Positions 43,864 through 50,207 of a stretch of DNA of 64,000 bases are shown in pieces (positions within the stretch are counted from its first letter, which is position 1; every line of letters starts with the position of its first letter). Source of the DNA: an uncultured Pelagibacteraceae bacterium (GTDB taxonomy: Bacteria > Pseudomonadota > Alphaproteobacteria > Pelagibacterales > AG-422-B15); assembly GCA_902578305.1 (NCBI GenBank), contig CACHCK010000003.1:130492-194491 (forward strand), read 5' to 3'. The position numbers and the translations under genes are program-made. The notes under the pieces were generated by a model. The model was not told the origin of the DNA, did not search any database, and saw only the letters and a program-made list of their open reading frames with translations.

Positions 43864-44349
43864 TCAGTCTCTAAAATTAATATATTGAAGAGGTAAGTCT
43901 AATTTTAGCTCTTTAATTTTCGATATGGCTTCTTGTAAATTGTCTTTTTTTGCGCCACTTATTCTCAGCTCATTTCCTTGAATTTTTGCTTGCACTTTCA
44001 ATTTTGACTCTTTGATTAATTTTGTAATTTTTTTACCTACCTCTTGATCAATACCCTCTAATAAATCGTAATTTTGTCTGATTGTATTGCCAGATGCACT
44101 TTCAGATGATTTTAGTTTTATTACCTTTGGGTCAACGTTACGTTTTATTAAATTTGAAATTAGAATATCTAATACCTGTTTAGCCTTCATTTCATCTTCA
44201 GATAATAAAATAATCCCTCCCTCAGTTCTCTCTAGCTTTGAAGCAGAACCTTTAAAGTCATATCTCTGTCCAATTTCCTTCATTGAATTAGATATAGCAT
44301 TATCAACCTCCTGCATTTCAACTCTACTAACAACATCGAAACTAGGCAC
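43864..44349 (-). CDS. YajQ-family nucleotide-binding protein (GTG start)
   Basis: A 161-residue protein beginning MPSFDVVSRVE with the conserved continuation QEVDNAISNSMKEIGQRYDFKG, in which QRYDFKG is the family marker; a second domain ends EAISKIKELKLDLPLQYINFRD (marker PLQYINFRD). YajQ relatives bind RNA, GTP or cyclic di-GMP in different species. The GTG start overlaps the stop of the CoA-transferase gene by one base (TAGTG). Function here is open. Confidence 0.93.
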   Translation of the reverse strand: MPSFDVVSRVEMQEVDNAISNSMKEIGQRYDFKGSASKLERTEGGIILLSEDEMKAKQVLDILISNLIKRNVDPKVIKLKSSESASGNTIRQNYDLLEGIDQEVGKKITKLIKESKLKVQAKIQGNELRISGAKKDNLQEAISKIKELKLDLPLQYINFRD

Positions 44350-45482
44350 TATAATAGAACTCCTTTATTTTCTAATTCTTTGATTTGTTCCTCAGAAAAA
44401 CCAATATCAAGCATTATGCTTTTGTTATCTTGACCAACTTCAGGTGCAGGAGATGGTTTTTCGGATGGCGTAACACTAAAACGTGGTGCTGGTGATGGTT
44501 GACGTACTTCGTTAATATTTACAAAATTATCACGCGCCTTCATGTGTTTATGATTAGCTGCCTCTTCGATAGAGAGAACTGGTGAATAACAAACATCAGA
44601 CCCTTCAAAGATTTCATCCCATTCATCCCTTGTTTTGGTTTTAAATATTTCAGCTAATTTACTTTTCATATTATCCCACTGATCTAATTGCATTTGATTT
44701 TTAAATTCATTACCAAGATTTAATTTATCAATTAAGAGTTGATAAAATTGAGGCTCTAAAGAACCTATTGAGACGTGCATGTTGTCTTTTGTCTCATAAA
44801 CTTGATAAAAGGGCGCGCCGCCATCAAATAAATTATTACCTCTGTTATTTACATTCCATACTCCTGACTGAGATAAACTATGAAATATTGATGTAAGAAC
44901 CGAAACTCCATCAATCATAGCGGCATCAACTACTTGTCCTTTACCCGTTCTATTTGCTGACAGTAAAGCTGCGCATACACCGAATGCAAGAAACATGGTG
45001 CCTCCTCCATAATCACCAATTAGATTAAGTGGTATTGATGGTTTATTTTCACCCCAAATTGAATATAGAGCGCCTGCTAATGCGATATAATTAATATCGT
45101 GACCAGCTGCCTGTGCAAGAGGACCATTTTGACCCCAACCAGTGATTCTTCCATAAACTAACTTTTCATTTTGTTTTAAACATTCTTCAGGTCCAATCCC
45201 TAGTTTTTCAGTTACCCCTGGTCGATAACCTTCTATTAGCGCGTCTGCATTTTTAATTAATTTAAATAAAACCTCTTTAGACTCGGGATCCTTTAAATTT
45301 AAACAAATAGATTTCTTACTTCTTCCAGTAATATCAAATTTTGGTTGTTGATTAGGCATAACGGTATTTTTTCTATCAACACGAATAACCTCAGCACCAA
45401 GATCGGCAAACAACATTCCACACAATGGCCCTGGCCCAATCCCTGATAATTCGATTATCTTATATCCAGATAAAACACCCAT
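44349..45482 (-). CDS. CaiB/BaiF (type III) CoA-transferase, AMACR-like
   Basis: A 377-residue family III CoA-transferase or alpha-methylacyl-CoA racemase. The N-terminal GYKIIELSGIGPGPLCGMLFADLGAEVIRVD pattern (Glu-Leu-x-Gly-x-Gly-Pro, then ADLGAEVI) and GITEKLGIG-like motif are typical, as is GHDINYIALAGAL, which holds the residues used by the racemase branch. The ATG at 45482 is chosen over a TTG eleven codons upstream that would run into mfd. Lies seven bases after the mfd stop. Acyl substrate unknown. Confidence 0.88.
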   Translation of the reverse strand: MGVLSGYKIIELSGIGPGPLCGMLFADLGAEVIRVDRKNTVMPNQQPKFDITGRSKKSICLNLKDPESKEVLFKLIKNADALIEGYRPGVTEKLGIGPEECLKQNEKLVYGRITGWGQNGPLAQAAGHDINYIALAGALYSIWGENKPSIPLNLIGDYGGGTMFLAFGVCAALLSANRTGKGQVVDAAMIDGVSVLTSIFHSLSQSGVWNVNNRGNNLFDGGAPFYQVYETKDNMHVSIGSLEPQFYQLLIDKLNLGNEFKNQMQLDQWDNMKSKLAEIFKTKTRDEWDEIFEGSDVCYSPVLSIEEAANHKHMKARDNFVNINEVRQPSPAPRFSVTPSEKPSPAPEVGQDNKSIMLDIGFSEEQIKELENKGVLL

Positions 45483-45489
45483 GTTTCTA

Positions 45490-47856
45490 CTATAATGCCT
45501 GCAATTCCTTTGCAAAAGAAAAAGCTTTATATATTCGATCTTTATTTGATGTTTTTTGGTAATTATACACCAATGTTTGATCTGATCTTAACTTTAAGTC
45601 ATACTTATATTTTGACATAAATTCAACCAGTTGGTCTGTTTTTTCGAAATGATTATTTTTAAATTTTATAGTTAAACCTTTATTTCCAATATCAAATTTT
45701 TCTATTTTCAACTGTTTACATATAATTCTAAGCTCAGTGATGTTATACAAATGTTCAACCTCTTTTGGAGCTTTGCCAAATCGCTCACTCATTTCTTCCT
45801 TAATTTTTCTTAATTCCTCACTCGAACTTAAGTAGGCAAGCTGCCGGTAATAGAACAGTCTAGTGTTTAAATTTGGCATATACTTTTCAGGTATTAAGAC
45901 GCTTAAACCAAGATTTATTTGTGGAGACCACTCATTATCAACTGTCGATGTATCTGATTTTAATTCCAATATCTTATCTTTTAGCAATTTATGGTAAAGT
46001 TCGAGACCAACTTCTCTAATATGCCCAGATTGAGCATCGCCTATAATGTTTCCTGATCCTCTCATATCTAAATCATGACTCGAAAGATTAAAACTTGAGC
46101 CTCTAGAATTAAATTTTTTAAGAAGCATAAGTCTTTTGTAAGCATTTTCAGTTATTCCATTGATGTCTTTAACTGTATAAAAACAAAATGCTTCAATATT
46201 AGATCTGCCAATTCGTCCTCTTAACTGATAAAGTTGAGATAATCCAAATTTATCAGAATTATGAATAATCATTGTGTTAGTTTTCTGCAAATCCAGACCC
46301 GACTCGACAATTGTGGTACACAGTAATAATTGAAATTCATTATTGTAAAAATCAATCATCGTATTTTTAAGGTTTTTGGCTGGCATTTGACCGTGGGCAA
46401 TTTGATACTTTACATTTGGAAGTTTACTTTTTAAAAAATCCTCAACTTCTTTTAATTCGTTAATTCTTGGGCAGACATAATACACCTGGCCATTACGACT
46501 TAATTCATATTCAATTGCAGAGATTATTTTTTCATCATTAAAATCAATAACTTCAGTATTTATATTTTGCCTATTTAATGGTGCTGTAGAAATAATTGAC
46601 AAATCCCTGAGACCTACAAGTGACATTTGTAACGTGCGTGGTATTGGCGTAGCTGTTAAAGCAAGCACATGTACATTTGACCGCAATGACTTAATTTTTT
46701 CTTTTTGAGAAACTCCAAAGTGCTGCTCTTCATCAATAATCAGCATACCTAATTTTTTAAATTTAATTTTACTGTTAAGAAGTGCATGTGTCCCAACAAC
46801 TACATCACTTTCTCCACTATTAATTCTTTCAATAATTTTATTGTTTTCAGAAGTTGAGTTTAATCTTGAGATTTGGTCTACTTTCAATGGAAAGTTTTTG
46901 AATCTTTTTGTAAAATTTTCATAGTGTTGACTGCATAGTAGTGTTGTCGGAACAATAAATGCAACTTGAGCACCGCTCATGGCTACGTTGAATGCTCCTC
47001 TTAATGCAACTTCTGTCTTACCAAAGCCAACATCGCCACATATCAAACGGTCCATTGGAAGTCCACTGTTTAGATCAAACAGTAATTCTGATGTTACATT
47101 TGCTTGATCTTCGGTATCCTGAAATTCAAATTCATTTATAAAATTTGAATAATAAGGTTCTTGAACGGTATATTTTGTCGCTTCTTTTAGAGATCTTTCT
47201 GCCGCAACTTTTATTAAATCTTCGGCAATTTCATTTATTTTATTTTTTGCGCTAGCTTTTCTGAATTGCCAATTTGAACTTCCAAGTTTATCAATTTGTG
47301 CGAATTCACTATTCCCACCGTACTTTGACAAAAGTTCAATATTCTCAACAGGTACATAAAGTTTATCATTATTGAAATATGTTATCTCAATGCAATCATG
47401 ATCGTTTTCTAGGACAGTAACATTTTTTAATCCATTAAATTTTCCTATTCCATGATCAACATGAACAATTAGATCATCTTGTTCAAAAGTACTGAGATCA
47501 GTTAAAAAAGTATCTGCTTTAATTGTGCGTTTGCTTTGATTGAAAGAGAACTCATTAAAGGGTTTGATTATGAGTCTGAACAGACTTTGTATTGATTTTT
47601 GATTTTTAGGATTAAATTCCTCAAATTTTTCGATCTCATCACCAAATATGTTAATACGAACTGGATTCTTGAAGTCTGTTGGAAAAATATCAATAACATC
47701 TCCTTTTACAGAGAATTCACCATTTTCACGAATTGAACTTACGCGTGCATAACCATTGGCAGATAAATAGTTAATTGTTCTTTCATAATCAAATTTTTCA
47801 TCAATGTTGATATTTAAATTCTCATTAACTTGAGTCTTTAAGCGTGGTTTCGTCAT
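45490..47856 (-). CDS. mfd: Transcription-repair coupling factor Mfd, minimal form lacking domains 1a, 1b and 3
   Basis: DNA translocase that removes stalled RNA polymerase and recruits UvrA. At 788 residues it is about 360 shorter than E. coli Mfd (1148). Residues 20-105 match E. coli domain 2 (UvrA-binding), with ENGEFSVKGDVIDIFP; residue 110 onward (RTIKADTF, then VHVDHGIGKF) matches the RNA polymerase-interacting domain. So domain 1a before, and domains 1b and 3 between, are missing. The translocase is complete: Walker A GDVGFGKTE (274-282), DEEQHFG (375-381), TATPIPRT (401-408), and the C-terminal domain 7 follows. The start overlaps sdhE by four bases, leaving no room for a lost 5' part. 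Confidence 0.93.
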   Translation of the reverse strand: MTKPRLKTQVNENLNINIDEKFDYERTINYLSANGYARVSSIRENGEFSVKGDVIDIFPTDFKNPVRINIFGDEIEKFEEFNPKNQKSIQSLFRLIIKPFNEFSFNQSKRTIKADTFLTDLSTFEQDDLIVHVDHGIGKFNGLKNVTVLENDHDCIEITYFNNDKLYVPVENIELLSKYGGNSEFAQIDKLGSSNWQFRKASAKNKINEIAEDLIKVAAERSLKEATKYTVQEPYYSNFINEFEFQDTEDQANVTSELLFDLNSGLPMDRLICGDVGFGKTEVALRGAFNVAMSGAQVAFIVPTTLLCSQHYENFTKRFKNFPLKVDQISRLNSTSENNKIIERINSGESDVVVGTHALLNSKIKFKKLGMLIIDEEQHFGVSQKEKIKSLRSNVHVLALTATPIPRTLQMSLVGLRDLSIISTAPLNRQNINTEVIDFNDEKIISAIEYELSRNGQVYYVCPRINELKEVEDFLKSKLPNVKYQIAHGQMPAKNLKNTMIDFYNNEFQLLLCTTIVESGLDLQKTNTMIIHNSDKFGLSQLYQLRGRIGRSNIEAFCFYTVKDINGITENAYKRLMLLKKFNSRGSSFNLSSHDLDMRGSGNIIGDAQSGHIREVGLELYHKLLKDKILELKSDTSTVDNEWSPQINLGLSVLIPEKYMPNLNTRLFYYRQLAYLSSSEELRKIKEEMSERFGKAPKEVEHLYNITELRIICKQLKIEKFDIGNKGLTIKFKNNHFEKTDQLVEFMSKYKYDLKLRSDQTLVYNYQKTSNKDRIYKAFSFAKELQAL

Positions 47857-48116
47857 TTTTTAAGCATCGTAAAATCTTTGAGTAAATGCATGACGCGATT
47901 GTCAATTTCTTTTGGAATTGTCACCTTATCTAGCGCATATCGATATATGTCATTATCATCAAGTTCTAATATACCCTCTAACATTTGAAGCTCACCTTCA
48001 TTAAACAATTTGATGTATTTCTCAACAAAAGATCCCAAGAGAATATCCATTTCCTTTGACCCCCGATGGGAGGATTTGAACTGAAGCTTTTTTTGAAGTG
48101 TATGTAAATCGTTCAT
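47853..48116 (-). CDS. sdhE: Succinate dehydrogenase assembly factor SdhE
   Basis: Small (87 residues) all-helical protein that helps attach FAD to the SdhA flavoprotein. The conserved RGxxE motif is RGSKE at 18-22 (in HRGSKEMD), followed by the expected ILLGSFVEKY and DIYRYA. Position between recG and mfd is the standard alphaproteobacterial arrangement. It overlaps mfd by four bases. Confidence 0.9.
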   Translation of the reverse strand: MNDLHTLQKKLQFKSSHRGSKEMDILLGSFVEKYIKLFNEGELQMLEGILELDDNDIYRYALDKVTIPKEIDNRVMHLLKDFTMLKK

Positions 48117-48149: not shown

Positions 48150-50207
48150 ATGAGGCCAAAGATCTTATACAAGCTTTTTTCAAATATAATGACGATTAAA
48201 GGGATTGGACCAAAGAACGCTAAAATAATTGAGAGATTATGCGGTAAATACATTGTTGATTTATTATTCCATAAACCAGCCGCATACATAGACAGAAGAA
48301 ACAGTCCTAAGATTGTTGATTTGGAAGAAGGAAGTATTGCAACTGTCGTTGTTAAAATTGATAGTCACACACCGGCTTTTAATAGAAGAATGCCATATCG
48401 AGTAAATGTCTCGGATGACAGCGGACAAATGTCGGTCGTTTATTTTAATCTACGAGGTCCATACATAAAAAAAATCTTACCGATAGGAAGCACTAGGGTT
48501 ATTAGTGGTAAAATTGAAAAATTTAACGATTTGTATCAAATTACACACCCACATCATGTAGTTGATATTAAAAACTTAGATTCTGTTAAAAAGATTGAGT
48601 GTGTTTACCCCTTAACGGCAGGAATGACATCTAAAATTATCCAAAAATCAATTAATTCTGCACTAAGTATGGTTGATGAATTGCCTGAATGGATACCTGA
48701 GAAAGTTTTAGAAAGAAACAAATGGCCATCATGGAAAGACTCTATTTATCAAATGCATAACCCAAAAGATGTGAAAGAAAATGATGATAATAAATATATA
48801 GAACGGCTTGTTTTTGATGAGTTGTTCTCTCAACAGTTAACAATTAGATTAATTAAAAACAAAATTAGTCATAAAAATGGAATTTCACTTCCTAGAAAAA
48901 ATAAATTATCAAAACAATTAAGAGATCAATTGAAATTTCAACTCACTGGTGATCAAGAAACAACTATTGAAGAAATTTCAAAAGATCAAGAAGGTTCAAG
49001 TAAAATGTTAAGACTTCTACAAGGAGATGTAGGTAGCGGGAAAACCATTGTTGCATTATTTGCTATGATGCAATGCATTGAAAATAATAAAAGATCAGTT
49101 TTAATGGCACCAACAGAAATACTTGCTGAGCAGCATTTTAATACAATCAAAGAATTTATTAGTGATTTAAACCTAACATGTTCACTAATTACATCCTCTA
49201 ATAAAAATAATCATAATTTTGAAGCAGACATTATTATTGGAACACATGCATTATTTCAGCAAAAAGTAAACTTTGAAAATATAGGCTTGGTTGTCATTGA
49301 TGAACAACATAAGTTTGGAGTGCACCAAAGGATTTTATTAAATGAAAAAGCAGGAAATAGTTGTGACATCTTATTGATGACTGCTACTCCTATACCTCGA
49401 ACGATGGAATTGGCAGCGTATGGAGATATGGATATATCCAAAATTTCTGAAAAACCTAAAAACAGAAAGGAAATAATTACCAAATCAATCAATATCAATA
49501 AAATTGACCAACTAAAAGAAAGCCTTACAAAAATATTAAATAAGAAACAAAAGATTTACTGGGTCTGCCCTTTAATTGATGAGTCTGAAAAGCTTCAGTT
49601 GCAATCAGTCAATTCAAGGGTCAATGACTTAAAAAAATATTACTCATCAAACATTGTTGGTTTAGTTCACGGTCAAATGTCTCAAGATGAAAAAAATGAT
49701 GTCATGTCAAAGTTTAAAGATAATAAAATAGATATTTTAGTCGCAACTTCAGTAATAGAAGTAGGAATAGACGACCCTGATGCAACTGTAATGATTATTG
49801 AGAATTCTGAGAGGTATGGCCTATCACAACTTCATCAACTTCGAGGAAGAGTTGGCAGAGGAAATGCACAGTCAACATGCATATTACTTTTTGAAGGGCC
49901 ACTCACCGATAATGCTAAACGAAGATTAAAAGTGATGAAGGAGACAAACGATGGTTTCTTAATCGCCGAAGAAGACCTTGATATTCGAGGTGCTGGGGAA
50001 ATATTAGGCTCAAAACAAAGTGGTATTCCAAATTTTAGATTATCAAATCTAGATAAGCATAAGCATATACTCGAGGAAGCGAGAGGTGTTGCCATGGATA
50101 TCGTTATAGAAGATCCGGATTTAAAAAAATCTGCAGGCAAAGCACAAAGGACACTTTTGCATCTATTTAGAAATCAAGTTGCAATCGATTATTTGAAAAC
50201 TGGCTAA
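48150..50207 (+). CDS. recG: ATP-dependent DNA helicase RecG
   Basis: Branch-migrating helicase that remodels stalled forks, 685 residues, normal length. The N-terminal wedge domain (OB fold, about 60-160) is followed by superfamily 2 motifs: Walker A GDVGSGKT, DEQHKFG, TATPIPRTMEL, and the C-terminal QLRGRVGRG and EEDLDIRGAGEILGSKQSG. Divergent from sdhE-mfd across a 33-base gap, so promoters of both units are very close. The stop is directly followed by the convergent DUF502 gene. Confidence 0.97.
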   Translation: MRPKILYKLFSNIMTIKGIGPKNAKIIERLCGKYIVDLLFHKPAAYIDRRNSPKIVDLEEGSIATVVVKIDSHTPAFNRRMPYRVNVSDDSGQMSVVYFNLRGPYIKKILPIGSTRVISGKIEKFNDLYQITHPHHVVDIKNLDSVKKIECVYPLTAGMTSKIIQKSINSALSMVDELPEWIPEKVLERNKWPSWKDSIYQMHNPKDVKENDDNKYIERLVFDELFSQQLTIRLIKNKISHKNGISLPRKNKLSKQLRDQLKFQLTGDQETTIEEISKDQEGSSKMLRLLQGDVGSGKTIVALFAMMQCIENNKRSVLMAPTEILAEQHFNTIKEFISDLNLTCSLITSSNKNNHNFEADIIIGTHALFQQKVNFENIGLVVIDEQHKFGVHQRILLNEKAGNSCDILLMTATPIPRTMELAAYGDMDISKISEKPKNRKEIITKSININKIDQLKESLTKILNKKQKIYWVCPLIDESEKLQLQSVNSRVNDLKKYYSSNIVGLVHGQMSQDEKNDVMSKFKDNKIDILVATSVIEVGIDDPDATVMIIENSERYGLSQLHQLRGRVGRGNAQSTCILLFEGPLTDNAKRRLKVMKETNDGFLIAEEDLDIRGAGEILGSKQSGIPNFRLSNLDKHKHILEEARGVAMDIVIEDPDLKKSAGKAQRTLLHLFRNQVAIDYLKTG

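Follow-up and report, generated by a model that had tools for sequence, protein, structure and literature searches.

The best described counterparts of the protein analysed here are full-length Mfds, such as that of E. coli (2EYQ) and those of alphaproteobacteria, which carry D2, the D3-D4 linker, the RNA polymerase-interacting domain (RID), the relay helix, the two translocase lobes (TD1 and TD2) and D7 in the same order. The D2 residues of E. coli Mfd that bind UvrA are R165, R181 and F185 (PMC3025350). D2 docks on D7 (E1045, D1048 and R1049), and this contact both covers the UvrA face and holds the motor back; deletion of D1-D3, or mutation of the D2 or D7 interface, derepresses the ATPase, while repair still needs D2 (PMC3025350). 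During loading, D1-D3 shifts far and D2 is finally exposed (PMC7864632). In E. coli, RNA polymerase removal is intact without the UvrB-homology module, and repair enhancement needs the D2 surface residues (PMC3025350).

The deltaBHM and domains 1-3 deletions of E. coli Mfd are N-terminally truncated proteins in which RID, motor and D7 are left, as in the short Mfd described here. The deltaBHM deletion abolishes repair enhancement because D2 is removed too (PMC3025350), while the natural short protein keeps D2. Work in E. coli mostly deletes the whole N-terminal module, and UvrA binding (D2) and scaffold (D1 and D3) are lost together. The Mfd of Buchnera, encoded in a reduced genome, is reportedly also naturally short (about 812 aa), and Buchnera is said to be without uvrABC; by contrast, UvrA, UvrB and UvrC are all present in the family studied here. 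The UvrA-UvrB interaction uses a homologous D2 with a common UvrA-binding surface, but the D2 of the short protein is Mfd-type and is not accompanied by the UvrB ATPase or damage-reading domains. Our literature search, to which subscription journals were mostly closed, found no account of a SAR11 Mfd or of a natural Mfd without D1 and D3, and an earlier report is possible.

A short mfd gene next to sdhE and recG

The window (the whole stretch of DNA analysed, 64,000 nucleotides from an uncultured Pelagibacteraceae bacterium) harbours a short mfd gene at 45490-47856 on the minus strand, an ORF of 788 aa recognised by TIGR00580 and by a two-part match to E. coli Mfd. The conserved neighbour sdhE (47853-48116, minus strand) overlaps the mfd start by 4 bases, and recG (48150-50207, plus strand) lies divergently from the sdhE-mfd pair. 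The mfd frame is 789 codons from stop to stop, with a stop one codon before the ATG; this ATG and the sdhE stop form an ATGA overlap that recurs in relatives. As the frame is closed one codon upstream and the start overlaps sdhE, no N-terminus has been missed. Separately assembled congeneric genomes have the same mfd frame (789-801 codons). A missed start or frameshift as the cause of the short N-terminus, already dismissed in a first-pass annotation made from the sequence alone, is ruled out, given the stop ahead of the ATG and the overlap with sdhE, and that judgement is further borne out by the same architecture in many separate assemblies.

Domain architecture of the short Mfd

The protein scored 893.9 bits against the NCBIfam mfd equivalog TIGR00580 (cut-off 800). 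Pfam domains were found in the order UvrB_inter (residues 14-103), CarD_TRCF_RID (124-179), DEAD (250-410), Helicase_C (448-552) and TRCF (650-742). The phmmer alignment with E. coli Mfd consisted of two stretches (query 30-108 with E. coli 144-222, and query 107-786 with E. coli 460-1143), and because the match falls in two pieces, E. coli residues ~1-127 and ~223-459 (D1a, D1b and D3) are absent. Three of the eight Mfd domains have gone, whereas RID, the two motor lobes and D7 are present in full; RID is followed by the RecG-like translocase and the TRCF D7 in an alignment that runs continuously over E. coli 460-1143. The full UvrB-homology module (D1a-D2-D1b) plus D3 is typical of Mfds but is not required by the curated models, and the protein does not have it; in everything else that was examined it is an Mfd. 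Its 788 aa compare with about 1120-1290 aa in full-length Mfds. The stretch before D2 is 13 aa long and that from D2 to the RID linker 0 aa, compared to 115-256 aa and 201-269 aa, respectively, in 22 full-length Mfds.

On the minus strand, the gene begins with a variable leader (residues 1-13; 47818-47856), whose ATG overlaps the sdhE stop and whose sequence differs between species. The UvrA-binding D2 follows (residues 14-103; 47548-47817), in which K51, R67 and F71 correspond to E. coli R165, R181 and F185. The junction, where D1b and D3 are missing and query residue 107 corresponds to E. coli 460, lies in residues 104-123 (47488-47547). This D2-to-RID linker is the former D3-D4 linker, and D2 is therefore tethered by ~20 residues beside RID. 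RID (D4; residues 124-179; 47320-47487; PF02559 and phmmer), whose partner is the RpoB motif described below, precedes translocase lobe 1 (TD1, D5; residues 250-410; 46627-47109; PF00270 and phmmer), translocase lobe 2 (TD2, D6; residues 448-552; 46201-46515; PF00271 and phmmer) and D7 (TRCF; residues 650-742; 45631-45909), where E688, E691 and R692 correspond to E. coli E1045, D1048 and R1049. The first-pass annotation had described an Mfd with D2, without D1a, D1b and D3, and with translocase and D7 complete; Pfam and phmmer agree with this description, and the domain limits that it had drawn by eye were correct to within a few residues. Its placement of the N-terminal part in D2 was also upheld by the UvrB_inter match to residues 14-103, which covers profile positions 1-91 of 91 (76 bits).

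Two AlphaFold2 models were obtained. Model 1 (pLDDT 52, pTM 0.29) was too weak for judging D2-D7 docking, and model 2, to which more distant rows were added, was still too weak for docking (pLDDT 71.6, pTM 0.49). The top PDB matches of model 2 were Mfd structures.

Search for the missing domains and origin of D2

Searches of 15 genomes from the window's family with profiles of D1b-D3 and D1a yielded no convincing match, while full-length Mfd controls matched these profiles at 1e-34 to 1e-86. The weak matches had E values of 0.003-0.004 (an 868-codon ORF and a 200-codon frame with a stop) and 0.07 (a 476-codon ORF). A separate gene for D1a, D1b or D3, named at the outset as a danger to the truncation reading, was accordingly not found in these genomes. 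The genome is a draft (94.6% complete), as would suit an assembly, annotation or split-gene artefact with the N-terminal domains encoded upstream or elsewhere, but the closed frame and sdhE overlap, the architecture shared by many separately assembled genomes and the profile search leave this explanation with next to no probability. Capture of D2 from UvrB, in place of Mfd's own domain, could be suspected from the UvrB models, which match residues 11-116 here and the corresponding region of full-length Mfds. On the D2 of the short proteins the Mfd-D2 model scored 85-97 bits and the UvrB-D2 model 35-49 bits; in all 11 proteins the Mfd model was ahead, with a lead of about 37-60 bits. In the D2 tree all UvrB D2s were set apart on a 100/100 branch, and the short D2s grouped with Mfd. 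By scores and tree the domain is nearer to Mfd than to UvrB; the bit-score gap and the 100/100 branch rule out borrowing, to which we give practically no credence. The window's genome has a separate uvrB gene (G000:C1:102689-104638).

Distribution and history of the short Mfd

The order was surveyed in 297 genomes. Mfd was carried by 38 of them, which represent four genera and all belong to the window's own family. Their mfd frames span 788-804 codons; the exceptions are a fragment (356 codons), a truncation at a contig edge (727) and an in-frame sdhE-mfd fusion (891). Mfd was absent from all 244 surveyed genomes of the order outside this family, and a whole-protein search in 15 relatives outside the family matched only RecG, UvrB and other helicases. 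Within the family, 15 genomes gave no Mfd match in the survey; for five of these, missing contigs are the explanation, because the adjoining recG is also absent. The same cut, which the earlier annotation had proposed to look for in related marine alphaproteobacteria, is clade-wide in the 38 genomes of the window's family. The short Mfd is thus a natural, heritable, clade-wide cut in one family of the SAR11 order.

Among the matches listed for 386 alphaproteobacterial and 399 Pseudomonadota genomes (overlapping samples, in which any contiguous junction match would head the list), only the window's genome matched the D2-RID junction from end to end. In the other matches the two halves of the junction profile aligned separately, and most of these matches lay in frames of ~1150-1250 codons. 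Across the class, Mfd was found in 364 of 387 genomes, and its loss in the sister family is therefore unusual. The window's family stands between full-length Mfd and complete loss. In the core tree, the short Mfds formed one clade (100/100) on a long stem within the alphaproteobacterial Mfds. In the relative that was checked in detail, whose Mfd is full-length (1133 aa), the neighbours are identical and the locus order is likewise recG-sdhE-mfd. The simplest history would be a full-length ancestor, one double deletion in the window's family and complete loss in the sister family. The sister family, closed genomes included, has no Mfd, yet recG-sdhE, with other genes alongside, and UvrABC are retained.

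Selection, the UvrA face and RNA polymerase docking

Pairwise dN/dS, estimated by the simple Nei-Gojobori method with several dS values saturated, was about 0.05-0.10 in D2 and 0.01-0.18 in RID, motor and D7 (motor 0.01-0.15). The 13-residue leader was far less constrained than the domains. Every domain is under strong purifying selection. The UvrA face of D2 is present in the short Mfds with lysine in place of R165 (K51, K in all), an invariant arginine at R181 (R67) and F or Y at F185 (F71).

The docking partner of RID was also found: the RpoB beta protrusion reads DIKEQ in six genomes of the family (L199-L202, L205 and L206), as in alphaproteobacteria with full-length Mfd. We take this motif to be the equivalent of the one on which RID docks in E. 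coli, I117-K118-E119 of the beta subunit, for which Smith and Savery in 2005 are said to be the source. Four Mfd-less genomes of the sister family (L203, L204, L207 and L208) have SAKEQ at this place (I to A). The retention of DIKEQ fits an RNA polymerase contact in use only where Mfd survives, in a sample that is small and phylogenetically clustered, such that a single change ancestral to the Mfd-less family would be enough to give the pattern. A change of the RpoB motif along with Mfd loss may be a cheap genomic marker of the Mfd-RNA polymerase contact.

The D2-D7 interface

The D7 triad was invariant in 21 full-length Mfds. In the short Mfds its first position is E or D, its second E, D, N or V, and its third R, T or Q. 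The change is strongest in g5, with T for R, and in g6, with N and Q for D and R. In the window's protein, E688, E691 and R692 stand opposite K51, R67 and F71 with the charges conserved, and the D2-D7 clamp could therefore still form. The triad positions are three of the six most changed among 25 conserved D7 positions (~0.009 by chance, post hoc). D7 as a whole was not enriched in changes (3/25 conserved positions lost vs. 41/239 overall). TD2 had lost 22/86 otherwise conserved positions, compared to 19/153 elsewhere (Fisher p = 0.012), possibly because packing against the N-terminal module has been lost. None of the nine relay-helix positions was lost. Judged by the triad, the clamp appears to have relaxed in some members of the family. 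On the constitutive UvrA recruitment suggested in the first-pass annotation the findings point both ways: the drift of the triad in g5 and g6 speaks for it, and the charges kept in the window's own protein speak against it. It is possible in the short Mfds.

Probable function of the short Mfd and alternative explanations

The short Mfd is probably a working, streamlined transcription-repair coupling factor. Its ancestor would have been an ordinary full-length alphaproteobacterial Mfd in a recG-sdhE-mfd locus, from which D1a and the D1b-D3 block would have been cleanly deleted in the ancestor of one family of the SAR11 order; since D2 sits within D1 as a self-contained insert, such a clean deletion is feasible. 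Besides D7, each contact would be left with one module: UvrA with D2, the RNA polymerase beta protrusion with RID and upstream DNA with the two-lobed motor. Most likely, RID binds stalled RNA polymerase, the motor translocates and displaces the polymerase as in E. coli, and D2, on its short flexible linker, passes the site on to UvrA. Compared with the E. coli enzyme, the short Mfd is probably under weaker control by the N-terminal clamp. By analogy with E. coli, the short Mfd would displace RNA polymerase and speed up template-strand repair.

Several observations run counter to a working Mfd: every short Mfd has lysine in place of the conserved D2 arginine R165, and D2 has a higher rate of evolution than the motor. 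Given the positions lost in TD2, the motor itself may also be altered. The loss of D1 and D3 could be costly, because E. coli Mfd without D1a-D2-D1b is deregulated (PMC3025350), and mfd could be on its way out, because the closest relatives dropped it entirely. A decaying remnant heading for loss, as in the sister lineages, would agree with the lack of Mfd in all other sampled genomes of the order, with the recG-sdhE pair that persists without mfd in relatives and with a one-base frameshift in the related contig L059. It is nevertheless improbable, since the frame is intact in four genera, dN/dS is far under 1 in every domain and genomes that have kept Mfd have also kept the RNA polymerase docking motif.

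Within the preferred reading of a working coupling factor, the alternatives concern the clamp. The short Mfd might be constitutively open: without D1 and D3 the clamp could not close, D2 would always be exposed and the motor would run without RNA polymerase. This refines the working-factor reading and is what the first-pass annotation suggested, and its chances fall just short of even. The derepressed ATPase of the E. coli domains 1-3 deletion and of the D2/D7 interface mutants (PMC3025350), the loss in g5 and g6 of a triad invariant in 21 full-length proteins and the rank of its three members among the most changed D7 positions argue for an open protein. However, the window's genus and g7 keep the acid-acid-Arg triad together with K, R and F or Y in D2, a contact that could persist; the ~20-residue linker may let D2 reach D7, and the AlphaFold2 models (pTM 0.29 and 0.49) are too weak for docking. 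That N-terminal autoinhibition was given up altogether, with D2 always exposed beside RID, the motor independent of RNA polymerase and this state fixed family-wide, is a tentative proposal of which we are somewhat doubtful. We lean slightly further against a simpler surviving clamp, in which D2, from its place beside RID, would dock on D7 and keep the UvrA face covered as long as RNA polymerase is not engaged; D1 and D3 would have served as mere scaffold. The charges conserved at the interface of the window's protein and the intact relay-helix positions suit such a clamp, but the interface is eroded in g5 and g6 despite the same architecture, and the E. coli mutants show that the clamp is easily broken.

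Two questions become addressable: can coupling proceed without D1 and D3, and can a living cell do without the autoinhibitory clamp? One natural protein can test both, because evolution kept D2 and dropped D1 and D3 with UvrABC still present.

Frame variants and the downstream gene

In L038:2692-5364 (G044:C6), the poly-A stretch where sdhE and mfd overlap has an extra A; the sdhE stop is thereby lost, and SdhE is fused in frame to the short Mfd (891 codons), either as a true variant or by a homopolymer error. In the L059 frameshift (L059:2195-4559), one additional A disrupts the frame of the short mfd, probably through an error in sequencing or assembly. Downstream of mfd in the window lies a gene (44349-45515, minus strand) whose product we take from its sequence to resemble a family III CoA-transferase; this gene overlaps the end of mfd by 26 bases if a TTG start is used.
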